A DNA stretch of 64,000 bases, taken from the NCBI RefSeq assembly GCF_900113065.1, contig NZ_FOOA01000001.1, positions 310,001 to 374,000 on the forward strand, given 5' to 3'. Below, one piece after another: positions 51,205 through 60,889 of the stretch. Each line of letters opens with the position of its first letter. The first letter of the stretch is position 1. The notes beneath the pieces were generated by a model, which was not told the DNA's origin, ran no database searches, and saw only the letters and a list, made by a program, of their open reading frames with translations. The translations under genes and the position numbers were made by a program. Source of the DNA: Aureimonas phyllosphaerae. GTDB lineage: Bacteria; Pseudomonadota; Alphaproteobacteria; Rhizobiales; Rhizobiaceae.

Positions 51205-52236
51205 TCAGTCGCCCTCGTCCTCGTAGCCGACGAGGTGGAGCGGGCGGGCGCGCACGCCCTTGAGCGCGCACCAGCGCACCAGCGCCTCCTCGCGGCCGTG
51301 CGTGACCCAGACCTCTTGCGGCGCGATCTCGGCGATGGTCTCGACGAGTTCGTCCCAGTCGCAGTGATCCGACAGGATCAGCGGCAGTTCGACGCCGCGC
51401 TGGCGCGCTCGACCCCGCACGCGCATCCAGCCGGACGCGAAGCATGAGACGGGATCGGGAAAGCGCCGCGCCCACTTGTCGGCGAAGGCCGACGGCGGCC
51501 CGACGATGATCGCGCCGGCGAACTCCGCCTTCGCCGCGCCCTCGGCGTCCTTGCCGCGCGCGATCGTCGCGGGGCGCAACTCGCCGAGGTCGATCCCCTC
51601 CTCCTGATAGAACTCGCACAGCCGCTTCAACGCGCCGTGAATGTAGATCGGCTCGTCGTATCCTTCCTCCCGCAGCATGCGGATGACCCGCTGCGCCTTG
51701 CCCAGCGCATAGGCGCCGACGAGATGGGCGCGCTCGGGAAACTGCCGCGTCGAGGCGATCAGCTTGCGCATCTCGCCGCGCGATTCCGGGTGGCGGAAGA
51801 CCGGCAGCGCGAAGGTCGCCTCCGTGATGAAGACATCGCAGGGAACCGGCTCGAAGGCTTCCGCGGTCGGGTCCTCGCGACGCTTGTAGTCGCCGGATGC
51901 GACGATCCGCATCCCGCCCCATTCGACAAGAATCTGGGCCGAGCCGAGTACATGGCCGGCGGGATGGAACGAGACGGTGACGCCGTTGATCTCGATCGGC
52001 CGGCCCCAGTCGGCCACCTGCCGCGTCGTGCAGAACTCCTCGCCGTAGCGCAGCGCCATGATCGCAAGGGTCCGACGCGTCGCCAGAACCTTTTCGTTGC
52101 CGGGGCGCGCGTGGTCGGCATGGCCGTGGGTGACGAGCGCCCGTTCGACCGGCTTCACCGGGTCGATGTAGAAATCGCCGGGCGGGCAGTAGAGGCCCTT
52201 GGGGGTCGGTCGGAGGAGGTCTTCGAAGCGCGCCAT
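51205..52236 (-). CDS. Ligase-associated DNA exonuclease (MBL/beta-CASP fold)
   Basis: This metallo-beta-lactamase/beta-CASP nuclease is of the kind encoded with an ATP-dependent DNA ligase in bacterial DNA-damage clusters. The 343-residue protein has the metal motif Thr-His-Gly-His-Ala-Asp-His (about 38-44), a second motif Pro-Ala-Gly-His-Val-Leu-Gly-Ser-Ala, Ser-Gly-Asp-Tyr-Lys and Ser-Asp-His-Cys-Asp. The ATG 52236 (Met-Ala-Arg-Phe-Glu-Asp-Leu-Leu) is chosen because the metal motif is then at the family position. No ligase gene adjoins. Confidence 0.88.
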   Translation of the reverse strand: MARFEDLLRPTPKGLYCPPGDFYIDPVKPVERALVTHGHADHARPGNEKVLATRRTLAIMALRYGEEFCTTRQVADWGRPIEINGVTVSFHPAGHVLGSAQILVEWGGMRIVASGDYKRREDPTAEAFEPVPCDVFITEATFALPVFRHPESRGEMRKLIASTRQFPERAHLVGAYALGKAQRVIRMLREEGYDEPIYIHGALKRLCEFYQEEGIDLGELRPATIARGKDAEGAAKAEFAGAIIVGPPSAFADKWARRFPDPVSCFASGWMRVRGRARQRGVELPLILSDHCDWDELVETIAEIAPQEVWVTHGREEALVRWCALKGVRARPLHLVGYEDEGD

Positions 52237-52335
52237 CGCCCGGTGAGATAGGGCTCGGCTCACCGCGCGAAAGCCCTTGCGCCGCGGGGGCCTGCCGCCG
52301 CATATGCCGACGATCCCTCTCGGAACCGACAGCCC

Positions 52336-54049: not shown

Positions 54050-56611
54050 GTGACAGCGCCGCTCTCCACACCGCCCCGCGACCTGCCCGGCTTCGACCTG
54101 CCGGAGGCGTTCCTGCGTTGGTTCGCGCAAAAGGGCTGGTCGCCGCGCCCGCACCAGCTCGATCTCCTCCAGCGCGCCGAGAACGGCGCTTCGGTGCTCC
54201 TGATCGCGCCGACGGGCGCCGGCAAGACGCTGGCGGGCTTCCTGCCGGCGCTGGTCGATCTCTCGCGGCGGCGCAAGCGCCGGCCGGGCACGCGGCCGCC
54301 CGGCATCCACACGCTCTACATCTCGCCGCTGAAGGCGCTCGCCACCGACATTCGACGCAACCTCGAAAAGCCGGTCGACGAGATCGGCCTGTCGATTTCC
54401 CTCGAGGCGCGCACCGGCGACACCTCGCAGGCCAAGCGCCAGCGCCAGAAACTGAAGCCGCCCGACATCATGCTGACGACGCCCGAGCAGCTGGCGCTGC
54501 TGATCTCGGCGCCGGACGCGGACAGCTTCTTCTCCGACCTCCGCTACGTGATCTTCGACGAGTTGCATTCGCTCGTCGCCTCCAAGCGCGGCCATCTCCT
54601 GGCGCTCGGCCTTGCGCGTCTCAGGCGCCTCCGCCCCGCGATCCAGACGATCGGCCTGTCCGCGACCGTCACCGACCCGGACGAGCTGCGCGAATGGCTG
54701 GTCGCGCAGGGGCCGGACGCATCGCCGATGGCCGATCTCATCGTCGTCGACGGCGGCGCCAAGCCCGAGATCACCATCCTGAAATCGCGCGAGCGCGTGC
54801 CCTGGCAGGGGCACATGGCGCGCTACGCGATGCCGGAGATCTACGAGGCGATCAAGCAGCACCGCACGACGCTGCTCTTCGTCAACACGCGCTCCCAGGC
54901 CGAACTCCTGTTCCAGGAGCTCTGGCGCATCAACGAGGAGACGCTGCCGATCGCGCTTCACCACGGCTCGCTCGACGTGGCGCAGCGCCGCCGCGTCGAG
55001 GCGGCGATGGCGGCCAACGAGCTGCGCGCCGTGGTCGCGACCTCGACGCTCGACCTCGGCATCGACTGGGGCGACGTCGATCTCGTCGTGCATGTTGGCG
55101 CGCCGAAGGGCGCCTCCCGCCTTGCCCAGCGGATCGGCCGCGCCAACCATCGGATGGACGAGCCGTCGCGCGCCATCCTCGTGCCGGCCAACCGCTTCGA
55201 GGTGATGGAGTGCCAGGCGGCGCTCGATGCCAACTATCTCGGCGCGCAGGACTCGCCGCCGATGCGCGAGGGCTGCCTCGACGTGCTGGCGCAGCACGTC
55301 CTCGGCATGGCTTGCGCCGCGCCCTTCCGCTCCGAGGACCTCTATGGCGAGGTCGTCACCGCTTCCCCCTATCGCGATCTCGACCGCGACACGTTCGACC
55401 GCGTCGTCGATTTCGTCGCGACCGGCGGCTATTCGCTCCGCGTCTACGACCGCTACGCCAAGATCCGCCTGACCGAGGACGGAACGTGGCGTGTGACGCA
55501 CCCGTCCGTGGTGCAGGGCTACCGGATGAACGCCGGCACGATCATCGAGTCGGAAGCGCTCCTCGTGCGCCTCATCCGCGCCAAGACGAAGAGTGGCATG
55601 GCGCGCGGCGGGCCGGTGCTCGGCAAGATCGAGGAGAACTTCCTCGAGACGCTGGCCATCGGGGACACGTTCCTGTTCTCCGGCCAGGTGCTGAAGTTCG
55701 AAGGCATCCACGAGATGGAATGCCTCGTCACCAAGACGCGGGACGACGAGGCGAAGGTCCCCTATTACGGCGGCCAGAAGTTTCCGCTGACCACCTTCCT
55801 CGCGGCCAAGGTGCGCGAGATGCTGGCCGACCCGACGCAGTGGGGCGCCCTGCCCTCCCAAGTCGGCGAGTGGCTCGCGATCCAGAAGCGCAAGTCCGCG
55901 ATCCCCGGACCGAACGACCTCCTGATCGAGACCTTTCCCAACGGCAACCGCTTCTTCATGGTCGCCTATCCGTTCGAGGGCCGCCTCGCGCACCAGACGC
56001 TCGGCATGCTCCTCACACGCCGGCTGGAGCGCGCGCGCGCCAAGCCGCTCGGCTTCGTCGCCACCGACTACGCCCTCTCCATCTGGGGACGCGCCGACAT
56101 GGGCGAGATGATCGGGTCGGGCAAGCTGTCGCTGGAAGACCTCTTCGACGAGGACATGCTGGGCGACGATCTGGAGGCCTGGATGGCCGACAGCTGGCTC
56201 CTGAAGCGGACCTTCCGCCAGTGCGCCGTGATCGCGGGCCTCGTGATGAAGCGCCAGCCGGGACGCGAGAAGACCGGGCGGCAGATGACAGTCTCGTCCG
56301 ACCTCGTCTACGACGTCCTGCGGGCGCACGAGCCCGACCACATCCTCCTGCGGGCAACCTGGGCGGACGCGGCGACCGGCCTTCTCGACGTCAAGCGCGT
56401 GTCGGACCTCCTTGCCCGCATCAAGCGCCACATTCTGCACAAGGACCTCGAGGAGATCTCGCCGCTCGCCGTGCCGATCATGCTGGAGGCCGGGCGCGAA
56501 CGCATCGAGGGCGAGGCCCGCGACGACCTCCTCGCCGAGGCGATGGAGGAGGAGCTGATCATCAAGGCGCTCGGCGAAGTGAAGGACTTCCGATCGAACT
56601 ACCTGCGCTGA
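54050..56611 (+). CDS. Ligase-associated DEXH-box helicase (Lhr-like)
   Basis: This superfamily 2 DNA helicase of Lhr type belongs to the ligase-associated DNA-damage set. The 853-residue protein has Walker A Ala-Pro-Thr-Gly-Ala-Gly-Lys-Thr (about 53-60) and the DEAH-type box Asp-Glu-Leu-His. Motif III Leu-Ser-Ala-Thr-Val and motif VI Gln-Arg-Ile-Gly-Arg-Ala-Asn-His follow, then the Lhr C-terminal region. The GTG at 54050 is directly preceded by GGAG with no spacing, so a different start may be used. The 3' end overlaps the convergent blh gene by 13 bp. Confidence 0.9.
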   Translation: MTAPLSTPPRDLPGFDLPEAFLRWFAQKGWSPRPHQLDLLQRAENGASVLLIAPTGAGKTLAGFLPALVDLSRRRKRRPGTRPPGIHTLYISPLKALATDIRRNLEKPVDEIGLSISLEARTGDTSQAKRQRQKLKPPDIMLTTPEQLALLISAPDADSFFSDLRYVIFDELHSLVASKRGHLLALGLARLRRLRPAIQTIGLSATVTDPDELREWLVAQGPDASPMADLIVVDGGAKPEITILKSRERVPWQGHMARYAMPEIYEAIKQHRTTLLFVNTRSQAELLFQELWRINEETLPIALHHGSLDVAQRRRVEAAMAANELRAVVATSTLDLGIDWGDVDLVVHVGAPKGASRLAQRIGRANHRMDEPSRAILVPANRFEVMECQAALDANYLGAQDSPPMREGCLDVLAQHVLGMACAAPFRSEDLYGEVVTASPYRDLDRDTFDRVVDFVATGGYSLRVYDRYAKIRLTEDGTWRVTHPSVVQGYRMNAGTIIESEALLVRLIRAKTKSGMARGGPVLGKIEENFLETLAIGDTFLFSGQVLKFEGIHEMECLVTKTRDDEAKVPYYGGQKFPLTTFLAAKVREMLADPTQWGALPSQVGEWLAIQKRKSAIPGPNDLLIETFPNGNRFFMVAYPFEGRLAHQTLGMLLTRRLERARAKPLGFVATDYALSIWGRADMGEMIGSGKLSLEDLFDEDMLGDDLEAWMADSWLLKRTFRQCAVIAGLVMKRQPGREKTGRQMTVSSDLVYDVLRAHEPDHILLRATWADAATGLLDVKRVSDLLARIKRHILHKDLEEISPLAVPIMLEAGRERIEGEARDDLLAEAMEEELIIKALGEVKDFRSNYLR

Positions 56612-57546
56612 GGCGACGCGCCGCTGGCCGTGCCGTCCCGGGTGAACAGCGGTGTCACCAGCATGTGCGGCACGGTGAGCGCCGCGAGGCCGATGAAGAT
56701 CGAGCCGAGAGCCGGCGCCGGCCCCTGTGACAGCCATAGCGCCAATCCGGCGAAGAAGAGGGCCGCACCAACGAGCGTCGGTGCGCAGGCACGCAGATAC
56801 GCAGGCAGGGTCGGCAGGTCGAGCCGCTGCATTCTCTCACGTGTCTCGCCGTGGCTGTGGATCAGGGCGAAGACGAGGGCGAAGCCGACCAGTGGAGAGA
56901 AGACGATCAACGCCGTGGCGCCGAGCGCGATCTCCGCGGCGCCTTCGCGATCGCGATGCCGAACCCGAGAAAGAGCGGCACCGACCGCAGCAAGGAGGAC
57001 CAGCGGCGCGAGCCATCCGGCGAGGCGCGCGAGGGTGATCCCGTCCTGCGGCGTCGACAGCAGTCCGAACAGCTGCGCGAGCGCATCCTCGTGCAGGAGC
57101 GCCGGCAGTGTGATCGGCATCAGGCCGCGTGCGAACCGTTCCGCCGTGCGGGCCTTCCAGGATCGGGCATGGACGTCGTCGATCGCGAAATGCACCGCCG
57201 ATAGGAGCAGGAAGGCGGCGAGCACGACACCGGGCGAAGCTTGCCAGAAGGCGAGCATTGCCCCGGCCGCGCCGAGATAGGCCGCGAGGAAGGCCGTCAG
57301 GCGTCCCAGTTGAGGCCGTGGCGGCTCGCCGCGCAGCGCCAGGAGATGGTCGCTCGCCCCGTGCGGCAGTCCGACGGCTAGGATCAGGACGGCCGCGAAG
57401 GCGAGAGGCGCTGAACCTCTCGCCCCGTCGGCTGCAAAGGCGAGGACGGCAAAGCCCGCCGCAGCGACGAGACGCCCGGACACGGCCGGGCCGGCTGCTG
57501 CCCCGACCGCTCTAGATGCGACCGGCTTGTCGGCGACGAGCGTCAT
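56599..57546 (-). CDS. blh: Brp/Blh-type beta-carotene 15,15'-dioxygenase
   Basis: Blh cleaves beta-carotene to two molecules of retinal, the chromophore of the rhodopsin encoded next to it. The 315-residue membrane protein has several hydrophobic helices and the family's histidine clusters: Leu-Pro-His-Gly-Ala-Ser-Asp-His (62-67), Ser-Ala-Val-His-Phe (His119), Ile-His-Ser-His-Gly (His230/232) and Val-Pro-His-Met-Leu-Val (His294). These bind the iron. The gene is 17 bp after the rhodopsin stop, so it is the second gene of an operon. The ATG is preceded by a GGGGGGCGGTGG stretch. Confidence 0.9.
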   Translation of the reverse strand: MTLVADKPVASRAVGAAAGPAVSGRLVAAAGFAVLAFAADGARGSAPLAFAAVLILAVGLPHGASDHLLALRGEPPRPQLGRLTAFLAAYLGAAGAMLAFWQASPGVVLAAFLLLSAVHFAIDDVHARSWKARTAERFARGLMPITLPALLHEDALAQLFGLLSTPQDGITLARLAGWLAPLVLLAAVGAALSRVRHRDREGAAEIALGATALIVFSPLVGFALVFALIHSHGETRERMQRLDLPTLPAYLRACAPTLVGAALFFAGLALWLSQGPAPALGSIFIGLAALTVPHMLVTPLFTRDGTASGASPQRR

Positions 57547-57563
57547 CCACCGCCCCCCGGTCG

Positions 57564-58271
57564 TCAGGCCAGACGCCGCGCCTCGCGGCGCTCCAGCTCC
57601 GGCTCGGCTGTCTTCAGCCGCTCGCCCACGAGGAGGCCATAGCCGACCTTGGCGGCGACATCGAGAACGAGGATTGCCCAGATGCTGGCGGCCGACGAGA
57701 TCGTGCCGAAGCCCTCAGGTCCGAGCGCGAAAACCACCGGGTAGGCCAGCCAGACGACCGAGAGCTGCAGCGCGTTCTGGCGATAGACCTTGTCGAGGTC
57801 GCCGCCGTAGTTGGCGGAGCGCTCGCGCAGCGGGCCCCAGAGAAGGTAGTAGACGCCCGCGAACGCCGCACAGGACCACAGGAACCAAATCAGGCGGGTC
57901 GTGCCGTCGAGGCTGATGGCCGACAGAAGACCGGCGAGGATCATCAGCGCATCGAGGCCGATGATGGCGGTGAGGTAGCCGCCCTGACGCGGGTGTTCAT
58001 GCAGGGCCAGCGCCACGAGGCCGGCCAGAAGGAGTGGCGTCGTGAAGATCCAGTCCACGTAGCGCGGCAGGTAGACCAGGGCGCCATCGCCGCGATCCCA
58101 GACGAAATTGCCGAGATACATCGCGAGATAGGCGGTCGCAGCGATGAACGGGACGAGCGCGTGGATCTGCGTGTGATGGCGGATCGCATTGGACTTCGAG
58201 CCCGTCGCGTAGATGGCGAGGGAGCCGACCGACATCGCGACGAAGCCGATCAACAGGGCGGTGCTTTCCAT
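57564..58271 (-). CDS. Microbial rhodopsin, bacteriorhodopsin-type, DTG motif (predicted light-driven proton pump)
   Basis: The 235-residue seven-helix protein resembles bacteriorhodopsin (BR) more than proteorhodopsin. By eye, retinal Lys208 lies in Leu-Asp-Val-Ala-Ala-Lys (BR K216), and Asp204 matches D212. Helix C Arg70-Tyr-Val-Asp73-Trp-Ile-Phe-Thr77 matches R82, D85 and T89. Gly84 replaces BR D96, giving an Asp-Thr-Gly triad. Glu186 matches E194 but E204 is Ser. Leu81 (BR L93) suggests green absorption. The start could be GTG 58277 or ATG 58271. Outward proton pumping is inferred from Asp85 and Thr89. Confidence 0.92.
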   Translation of the reverse strand: MESTALLIGFVAMSVGSLAIYATGSKSNAIRHHTQIHALVPFIAATAYLAMYLGNFVWDRGDGALVYLPRYVDWIFTTPLLLAGLVALALHEHPRQGGYLTAIIGLDALMILAGLLSAISLDGTTRLIWFLWSCAAFAGVYYLLWGPLRERSANYGGDLDKVYRQNALQLSVVWLAYPVVFALGPEGFGTISSAASIWAILVLDVAAKVGYGLLVGERLKTAEPELERREARRLA

Positions 58272-58306
58272 GATCACGAAACCTTGAGGAGCGAAGGTTC
58301 TGTGCG

Positions 58307-58331
58307 AACACGGAGGCGTTACCGAAGTTCC
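58307..58331 (-). promoter_or_regulatory. Candidate EcfG-type promoter of the rhodopsin-blh operon
   Basis: GGAAC (58331-58327) is followed after 16 bases by TGTT (58310-58307) on the minus strand. The general-stress sigma EcfG consensus is GGAAC-N16/17-CGTT, so one base differs. The start codon lies 36 bases downstream. Only sequence match supports it. Confidence 0.4.
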
Positions 58332-58395
58332 GCCCTTACGGATGGTTTAGTCGTCGCAGGCATTTCCGGGACCATTCGGAAGCACTGAAAGCGAA

Positions 58396-58420
58396 GCGAC
58401 GCGGCGAATTTCCGCGTCGC
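58396..58420 (-). terminator. Hairpin after the SulP gene
   Basis: GCGACGCGG and CCGCGTCGC pair around a 7-base loop, 11 bp after the SulP stop on the minus strand. No strong T-run follows, so termination may be partial and rhodopsin could be read from the SulP gene. Confidence 0.55.
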
Positions 58421-58430
58421 CTCGTCGTCG

Positions 58431-59915
58431 TCAGTGGCCCGCCGGCAGTTCCAGCGCGTCGGCCCGGTTCTGGATCGTCAGCTTGTCGACGATCGTCTGC
58501 GAGGCCGCGTTGAGGCCGACGACTTCGACGGCAACGCCGGCCTTTCGGAATTTCAGGACCGCCTTGTCTAAGGCACCGACGCCGGTGAGGTCCCAGATAT
58601 GGGCGCGGCTGACGTCGATCGTGACATGCGACAGCGGCTCCCGGAAATCGAAGCTTTCCAGGAAGCGCCCGGCCGAGGCGAAGAAGACCTGTCCCTCGAC
58701 GACATAGGTCCGTGCGCGCCCGTCGTTCGACGCGACGCTGGTGACCGCGAAGATCTGGGCGATCTTGGACGCGAAGAAAAGGCCCGACAGGAGCACGCCC
58801 GCAAACACGCCGAGCGCGAGATTGTGGGTCCAGACCACGATCACGACCACCGTCAGCATCACGACGGAGGAGCGACGCGGATGCGTGACAAGGCTCTTCA
58901 GCGAAGCCCAGTCGAACGTGCCGATCGAGACCATGATCATGATGGCGACGAGCGCCGGCATCGGGATCACGGCGACCCAGTTGCCGAGCACGACGATCAG
59001 GAAGAGGAGCGCGACGCCCGCAAACAAGCAGGACAGACGCCCGCGGCCGCCCGAGCGGATGTTGATGCCGGACTGGCCGATCATCGCGCAGCCCGCCATG
59101 CCGCCGAAGAAGCCGGTGACGAAGTTGGCGATGCCCTGCCCGAAGCATTCGCGATTCTTGTCCGAGCCGGTGTCGGTGAGATCGTCGACGACCTGGGCGG
59201 TCATCAGCGACTCCAGAAGCCCGACCAGTGCGATCGCCACCGAATAGGGCAGGATGATCTGCAACGTCTCGAGATTGAAGGGCACGTCGGGCAGGAAGAA
59301 GCTCGGGAAGCTCGACGGAAGCTGGCCCATGTCGCCGACCGTGCGCACGTCGATGCCGAAGGCGAGGACCACGGCCGTGATCGCGACGATCGCCACCAGC
59401 GGTGACGGGATCGCCTTGGTCACATACGGGAAGAGGTAGATGATGGCGAGCGCGGCGGCGACCAGAACGTAGGTCATGTCGGGAACGCCGATCAGCTCGG
59501 GCATCTGGGCCAGAAAGATCAGGATCGCCAATGCGTTGACGAAGCCGGTCATCACCGAGCGCGAGACGAAGCGCATGAGGTCGCCGAGCCGGAGAAACCC
59601 GGCCGCCATCTGCACGAGGCCCGCCAGCACCGTCGCGGCGAAGAGGTATTGCAGCCCGTGGTCGCGCACCAGCGTGACCATGAGGACGGCGGTCGCCGCG
59701 GTGGCGGCCGAGATCATGCCGGGCCGGCCGCCGAAGATGGCGGTCAGGACGGCGATGGAGAACGAGGCGTAGAGTCCCACCTGCGGGTCGACGCCCGCGA
59801 TGATGGAGAAGGCGATCGCCTCGGGAATGAGCGCGAGCGCCACCACGAGGCCGGACAAAAGATCGCCACGGACATTGCCGAGCCATTCGGCCCGGAGGTT
59901 ATCGGTCGAAAACAT
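58431..59915 (-). CDS. SulP-family anion transporter with STAS domain
   Basis: This 494-residue SulP transporter carries sulfate, bicarbonate or related anions. The membrane core (about 15-380) has Leu-Ile-Pro-Glu-Ala-Ile-Ala-Phe-Ser (TM1 signature) and [12 protein letters not shown]. A cytoplasmic STAS domain (about 400-494) has [12 protein letters not shown]. The substrate cannot be told from sequence alone. The ATG 59915 or TTG 59927 may be the start. It lies directly upstream of rhodopsin-blh in the same direction. Confidence 0.88.
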
Positions 59916-60145
59916 GAGCGGAAACAACGAGGATCTCGGCGACGCCGGAAGCCCTTAGGGCTCGATCGCGAGGAGTCTGGACGTCGCTGGATTGGCCGAG
60001 GGATAGGCGCCCGGCATAGCCACCCGGCGCGCCGGGTCCATTGTGCAGTTTCTTAATGTCTTGCACCGGCGCCGGAATCAAGTGCCGATCGTCGCACCGC
60101 CTTGCCTTCGCCGCCATTTATCGATTCCAAGAACGCTTCAGGAAC

Positions 60146-60889
60146 ATGGACGACCCGGACGCAGAACGCATGAACATGATCCATCGCCGGATGCGGCAGG
60201 GCGAAGCGCCGGGGTTCGAGACGGTGCTGAACGGCGGCGACGTCGTGTGCGACCCCTCCGGCGTCCTCTATGCGCCGGCCGAGCGGCTGATGGTCGTCTC
60301 CGACCTCCATCTCGAAAAGGGCGCGGCTTTTGCCCGGCGCGGCATGTTCCTGCCGCCCTACGACACGCAGGCGACGCTCCTGCTGCTGGAGGCCGCGCTC
60401 GACCGCTACCAGCCGCACGTCGTCGTGGCGCTCGGCGATAGCTTCCACGACCGGCATGGCGCGGGCCTGATGCCAGACGAGCCGCGCACCCGCCTCAAGG
60501 CCGCGATGGCCGGCCGCGACTGGATCTGGATCGAGGGCAACCATGATCCGGAACCGCCCGCCGGTCTCGGTGGGGTCTGCGCCGAGGAGGTTTCGATCGG
60601 GCCCTGGCATTTCCGGCATGAGCCGACGCCAGGGGCACGGGCCGGCGAGGTCGCCGGCCATCTGCATCCGTCCGCGCGCGTCAGCGGCAACGGTCGCAGC
60701 GTACGGGGTCCGTGCTTCGCCAGCGACGGCGCGCGCATGGTGATGCCGTCCTTCGGCGTGACGACTGGCGGGCTGAACGTCCTCAGCGCGCCGTTCGCCG
60801 GCCTGTTCCGGCCAGAGACGGCGCGCGCCTACGTGATCGGCGCGGCGCGGATCTATCCGATCCCGTTCGCCTCGCTCAGCCGTGGCTGA
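60146..60889 (+). CDS. pdeM: Ligase-associated phosphoesterase/endonuclease PdeM
   Basis: PdeM is the metallophosphoesterase of the ligase-associated DNA-damage set. The 247-residue protein has the metallophosphoesterase motifs Val-Ser-Asp-Leu-His-Leu-Glu-Lys-Gly (about 51-59), Leu-Gly-Asp-Ser-Phe-His-Asp (about 97-103) and Glu-Gly-Asn-His-Asp (about 131-135). A Gly-His-Leu-His-Pro follows. The start is ATG 60146, two bases after AGGA, or ATG 60170. The helicase, its usual upstream neighbour, is 3.5 kb away, beyond the rhodopsin module. Confidence 0.87.
   Translation: MDDPDAERMNMIHRRMRQGEAPGFETVLNGGDVVCDPSGVLYAPAERLMVVSDLHLEKGAAFARRGMFLPPYDTQATLLLLEAALDRYQPHVVVALGDSFHDRHGAGLMPDEPRTRLKAAMAGRDWIWIEGNHDPEPPAGLGGVCAEEVSIGPWHFRHEPTPGARAGEVAGHLHPSARVSGNGRSVRGPCFASDGARMVMPSFGVTTGGLNVLSAPFAGLFRPETARAYVIGAARIYPIPFASLSRG

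Follow-up and report, generated by a model that had tools for sequence, protein, structure and literature searches.

How did a rhodopsin gene come to stand between DNA repair genes in Aureimonas phyllosphaerae, and does the anion transporter gene beside it belong to the same unit? The locus lies in a 64,000-nt stretch of this genome (contig NZ_FOOA01000001.1, positions 310,001 to 374,000; hereafter the window). Aureimonas species are often plant-dwelling. Three minus-strand genes, for a SulP transporter, a rhodopsin and the Brp/Blh-family protein Blh, stand here between the genes for a ligase-associated helicase and the endonuclease PdeM, and a sequence-only reading had taken the three for one imported cassette. 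We hold it probable instead that rhodopsin and blh form a self-contained two-gene light kit, lodged in a variable slot between helicase and SulP genes, whose DTG rhodopsin (named for its motif, below) is likely an outward proton pump and may be stress-promoted. The features are as follows (window coordinates).

57564..58271, minus strand: DTG rhodopsin of the mirror-proteorhodopsin (SpaR) type, assigned from its residues (PF01036, E 6.3e-45; best PDB matches 8anq and 7w74)
56599..57546, minus strand: blh, Brp/Blh beta-carotene dioxygenase family (PF15461, E 1.1e-39; TIGR03753, 156.8 bits, over its cut-off of 95.25)
56608..58430, minus strand: rhodopsin-blh insert in the helicase/SulP slot, in this genome only (homology breaks against 8 of 8 relatives; ends good to about 20 bp)
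58431..59915, minus strand: SulP/STAS anion transporter, resident gene (PF00916 and PF01740; found at this position in 14 of 21 Aureimonas genomes, counting this one)
54050..56611, plus strand: ligase-associated helicase of the DEXH (Lhr) type, bordering the slot on the left (TIGR04121, 1101 bits)
60041..60889, plus strand: pdeM, ligase-associated endonuclease (TIGR04123, 225 bits)
58307..58331, minus strand: EcfG-type promoter-like element, GGAAC-N17-GTT, set 35 nt ahead of the rhodopsin ATG
58392..58424, minus strand: hairpin just past the SulP stop, which may terminate SulP but has a weak T tail (13-nt arms, 7-nt loop)

Open reading frames (ORFs) and family matches agree that SulP, rhodopsin and blh lie together on the minus strand with 17 bp from rhodopsin stop to blh start, as first described. 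The rhodopsin ORF spans 57564-58277 (minus), with a likelier ATG start at 58271 that we picked by comparison with other rhodopsin copies; the SulP ORF spans 58431-59927 (minus), its ATG at 59915 being internal. The blh gene, stop codon included, shares 13 bp with the 3' end of the helicase gene. No substrate is assigned to SulP, because it scores under the NCBIfam cut-offs for TIGR00815, DauA and BicA.

To place SulP we searched 21 Aureimonas genomes, including this one, with the SulP, PdeM and helicase proteins of the window and compared positions. In 14 of the 21, SulP occupies the space between helicase and pdeM, on the strand opposite to theirs; six have a helicase-pdeM gap of 72-104 bp with no SulP there, and one (G158) has a 1461-bp gap without SulP. 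None of the 13 other genomes with the same SulP arrangement carries a rhodopsin at the helicase/SulP site. SulP is thus independently resident, outside the light-gene pair. The wider family gives the background: 73 of 81 sampled genomes pass the family cut-offs for both helicase and pdeM, and in 62 of these pdeM comes next in line, less than 700 bp behind the helicase; in eight the two share a contig 1.9-53 kb apart, and in three no in-line pair on one contig turned up. The earlier view that helicase and pdeM are commonly adjacent is therefore right for the family at large, but in the genus only the six genomes conform to it. The three genes do lie between helicase and pdeM, and SulP had already split that pair within the genus; the simplest order is SulP plus slot first, rhodopsin-blh later. 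Five distant genus members (G151, G152, G153, G155 and G156) show a helicase match with one in-frame TGA inside.

DNA comparison delimits what is peculiar to this genome. By blastn against eight of the 13 relatives, homology ends at 56601-56623 and resumes at 58412-58431 in all eight, and these ends match the helicase and SulP stop codons to about 20 bp. Because homology breaks at the helicase stop and restarts at the SulP stop, only rhodopsin-blh is extra. We infer that the kit was inserted stop-to-stop between the convergent resident helicase and SulP genes. These relatives also gave five stray DNA matches of 19-55 bp, all located outside their slots. Carriage by a phage or plasmid was considered and rejected: no rhodopsin relative was confirmed in viral contigs by a scan that detects close relatives only, the insert has no DNA match in plasmids, and the five plasmid records with a protein match at E 1e-20 or better are all below 60% identity.

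The pair itself recurs. Rhodopsin matches occur in 4 of 21 genus genomes and 3 of 151 family genomes (E 1e-10 or better); at E 1e-15 or better, five of the 397 genomes sampled for the order have one, and five of the 398 for the phylum. This genome is in each count, the samples are not disjoint, and identity is as low as 30-40% in some of the matches. The closest rhodopsins that we found in named genomes are all from Aureimonas (four loci). We found blh near 16 of the 20 other rhodopsin loci (the remaining four are a 45-codon fragment in G157 and three distant rhodopsins) and SulP near none of the 20, so that among 21 loci SulP was found only in the window; the flanks covered about 4-12 kb, except for 0.4 kb upstream in L010, at a tblastn limit of 1e-4. 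Linkage of all three genes was thus seen at none of the other loci, while rhodopsin-blh is a real recurrent pair with two other Aureimonas sites. One of these is on contig 29 of this same genome (G000), where a rhodopsin with a DTS motif at 231342-232049 (L008:12340-13047) is 77% identical to that of the window; upstream synteny links it to pairs in G079 and G157, making a site common to three genomes. The other is common to G157 and G165, and the window site is found in this genome only. The G157 fragment (contig 15, L104:3781-3912) is the start of a rhodopsin gene, 45 codons long, with an upstream region of DTS type; the rest of the gene is gone, and it is a remnant of a further A. jatrophae copy. 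G088, of another genus of the family, carries a different DTG rhodopsin twice on contig 16, each time with blh, the two copies lying about 40 kb from each other (L010 and L011).

In the rhodopsin tree the window protein falls inside an Aureimonas clade (100/99) as sister to three DTS copies (95/98); Methylobacterium, G479 and G088 sequences form another clade (97/92), and the fork with G872 has 80/78. Of 14 inner branches 5 stay unsettled, and the program gives a warning that a long branch, G872, meets the Aureimonas clade; on this tree a grouping of the window rhodopsin with SpaR-like sequences, apart from the MpR-like clade, is tentative. The blh tree leaves the placement of the window blh open.

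Is the kit read apart from SulP? The SulP-stop hairpin folds at -25.9 kcal/mol (z -3.04; none of 200 shuffles reached so low a value). In 12 of the 13 relatives the 60 nt past the SulP stop fold at between -28.3 and -41.6 kcal/mol, G163 being the exception at -10.0; these are values for GC-rich DNA without shuffle controls. Our terminator scan omitted this hairpin, its T tail being weak, and returned two terminator-like sites, the same number as in shuffles; a scan for sigma-70-type promoters found none. Ahead of the rhodopsin, GGAAC-N17-GTT is the only match to its pattern on either strand of the 64-kb window (0.80 expected), and it fits, near the start, the EcfG consensus GGAAC-N17-20-GTT reported from Sphingomonas melonis (PMC6599016). 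In the G157_C10 and G165 copies both boxes recur 37 nt upstream with N17 between them, though the spacer sequence has diverged; in the G088 rhodopsins, of the other clade, they have N17 and N18 spacers, and the distance is 40 nt to the aligned codon, or about 31 nt to the likely ATG. Across 21 rhodopsin upstream regions the motif with N16-18 occurs in five against 0.28 expected, and 0 of 2000 dinucleotide shuffles reach five. The three DTS copies and the rhodopsin fragment instead share upstream boxes CAACATTAAAT and TTA(C/A)A(A/T)TCTCGT. The genome encodes NepR, the general-stress anti-sigma factor (among 14 control genomes, Caulobacter alone passes the cut-off). Rhodopsin-blh would perhaps be read from its own putative EcfG-type general-stress promoter, apart from SulP; as sequence features, hairpin and promoter-like element speak against a three-gene operon, though separate transcripts are unproven.

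The same evidence bears on the idea that SulP and the pair, whatever their origins, have come to work and be transcribed as a single unit in this species, with SulP using the light-driven gradient. The genes do run in one direction, with 153 bp from the SulP stop to the annotated rhodopsin start. We nevertheless think such a unit unlikely, given the hairpin, the promoter-like element and a SulP without substrate assignment; and the joining of anion transport to a light-driven gradient that the sequence-only reading proposed finds no support here.

The slot raises a second alternative, in which rhodopsin-blh is ancestral there and sister species have since lost or replaced it. Measured from the helicase stop to the SulP stop that faces it, the slot spans 1.0-4.3 kb, with content differing across the 14 Aureimonas genomes and even in the nearest relatives, G161 and G167, as this alternative would have it: G161, with helicase 99% and SulP 97% identical, holds other content. 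But none of the 13 relatives with the same SulP arrangement carries the pair there, and blastn found no remnant of it inside the slot of the eight compared, which makes ancestry in the slot rather improbable. A Pfam search of 18 slot ORFs picked by eye, a subset of the total, found a photolyase-related gene (PF04244) in G079, G164 and G166, accompanied by a VTT-domain gene in G079 and an epimerase-type gene in G164; HPP-CBS genes in G168, G169, G162, G165 and G157; a PAS-HWE histidine kinase in G154; an HsdR-N-like gene in G163; and a Tad/VWA protein in G160. The slot ORFs tested from G161 and G167 had no Pfam match. Occupants are thus mixed, although 3 of 13 relatives have a photolyase-related one, and a specific tie of the slot to light or repair finds no support; the supposed link to light-damage repair had position as its sole basis.

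Some details of the slots are recorded here. The photolyase-related ORFs are L088:6979-8520, L089:5802-7343 and L090:4101-5663. A 322-residue ORF without Pfam match (L086:4399-5367) fills most of the G161 slot. The VTT-domain (DedA-like) gene of the G079 slot (L088:6140-6811) resembles a gene after blh at the DTS site of G000 (L008:10677-11246), of which G157 has a 90% identical copy at its own DTS site.

What would the rhodopsin do? The closest solved chains are 8anq and 7w74, and 8ANQ is SpaR (PMC10154332). Aligned to SpaR, the window protein keeps H32, H33, H37, Y48, R70, D73, T77, E189, S199, D207 and K211 (SpaR numbering); the retinal lysine is K210 and the counter-ion D75. D75, T79 and G86 occupy the positions of bacteriorhodopsin 85, 89 and 96, within the DTG/DTS/DTT definition of mirror proteorhodopsins. 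The motif reads DTG because G replaces SpaR S84; the Aureimonas DTS copies have S at this position. The cytoplasmic histidines are of the SpaR type (H34, H35 and H39), not the E32/E33/D35 pattern. SpaR is reported to pump outward at acidic pH and to be inhibited by Zn2+, and PspR and PaR also pump (PMC10154332). By analogy with these three, the window rhodopsin is predicted most likely to pump protons outward in the light, with H39 (H37 in SpaR) in, or serving as, the cytoplasmic donor, and probably best at acidic pH. For the pigment, Blh would cleave beta-carotene to retinal, which the rhodopsin would bind at K210; beta-carotene is plausible because all 21 Aureimonas genomes have one strong, near-full-length lycopene cyclase hit each (286-349 bits).

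A third alternative makes the protein a sodium pump or a light sensor rather than a proton pump. A DTG rhodopsin of Methylobacterium populi is indeed reported to move Na+/Li+ (PMC10154332), but it comes from a separate DTG/DTS clade that mostly carries E32, E33 and D35, where the window has its SpaR-type histidines, and the immediate neighbour genes scanned include no transducer. We therefore give either function little credence. As for one horizontally acquired cassette of SulP, rhodopsin and blh coupling anion transport to light-driven gradients, adjacency on one strand and the read-through that the weak T tail would permit speak for it, but SulP sits at the same place without rhodopsin there in 13 of the 20 other Aureimonas genomes, the cassette fails a travel-together test on genus positions, DNA comparison and the 20 other loci, and hairpin and promoter-like element intervene, so that a common origin of the three is already contradicted and the cassette highly improbable.

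Several observations weigh against our own proposal of an inserted, pumping, possibly stress-promoted kit. First, the insert is unmarked: it has no convincing flanking repeats and no mobile-element genes, and its GC content resembles that of the flanks, with no foreign composition. Gain in this genome is the simpler reading, and loss in relatives a less likely one. Second, of the two serines present in the vast majority of SpaR-like members, S121 and S199 (PMC10154332), the window protein keeps the latter (S198) and has A120 for the former, and D196 is replaced by S and Y133 by F. Third, the lycopene cyclase model passes its cut-off in 9 of 14 control genomes, for which reason only strong hits were counted, and weaker over-cut-off hits also occur in the genus. 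Fourth, the weak T tail leaves read-through past SulP possible; the window motif was first spotted by eye and so is no independent test; the five motif-bearing regions amount to about two lineages; and 16 of 21 upstream regions, the DTS copies among them, lack GGAAC-N16-18-GTT. By analogy, outward proton pumping is the most likely predicted role.

The comparative data take the place of the three-gene story, and Aureimonas joins the genera with SpaR-type rhodopsins. Rhodopsin-blh pairing is already known; the fresh, testable point is the stress-type promoter with the DTS/DTG split. We tentatively suggest that this Aureimonas and A. jatrophae each retain two mirror proteorhodopsins for separate roles, the DTS copy under its own conserved non-EcfG boxes and the DTG copy driven by EcfG, so that stressed or starving sunlit cells may switch on light-driven proton pumping. 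If true, this would put a rhodopsin within the alphaproteobacterial general stress response and offer a testable idea on timing, namely that such pumps are made under that response. The biological role of the mirror-proteorhodopsin group is said still to need study (PMC10154332). Aureimonas is absent from the main text of that paper, and the word rhodopsin from the main text of PMC6599016. No SulP-rhodopsin linkage, Aureimonas rhodopsin or EcfG-controlled rhodopsin was found in the literature searched, which lay mostly outside subscription journals and is weak evidence of absence (PMC10154332, PMC6599016, PMC10949492, PMC4844311, PMC5459899, PMC6794327, PMC11883979, PMC4462920).

The locus can be set beside four known systems. 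All three members of the ligase-associated set, helicase, exonuclease and PdeM (TIGR04121, TIGR04122 and TIGR04123), are also in the window, the exonuclease at 51205-52251; in 14 of 21 Aureimonas genomes SulP and the variable slot part helicase from pdeM. With EcfG promoters (PMC6599016) the window element agrees in boxes, spacer and distance to the start, which is within the tabulated range. With the mirror proteorhodopsins SpaR of Sphingomonas paucimobilis, PspR of Pseudomonas putida and PaR of Pantoea ananatis (PMC10154332) the window protein has in common the DTG/DTS motif, the helix-B HHxxxH, the counter-ions, the gate Arg and the retinal Lys; it departs from them where S121, D196 and Y133 are replaced. 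Finally, in the pairs on Sphingomonas and Pantoea plasmids the rhodopsin is directly followed by blh, as here, and the window rhodopsin is 54% identical to a Sphingomonas plasmid copy; unlike those pairs, ours stands on a 645-kb contig beside repair genes, with other neighbours and a blh only 32-33% identical to theirs.

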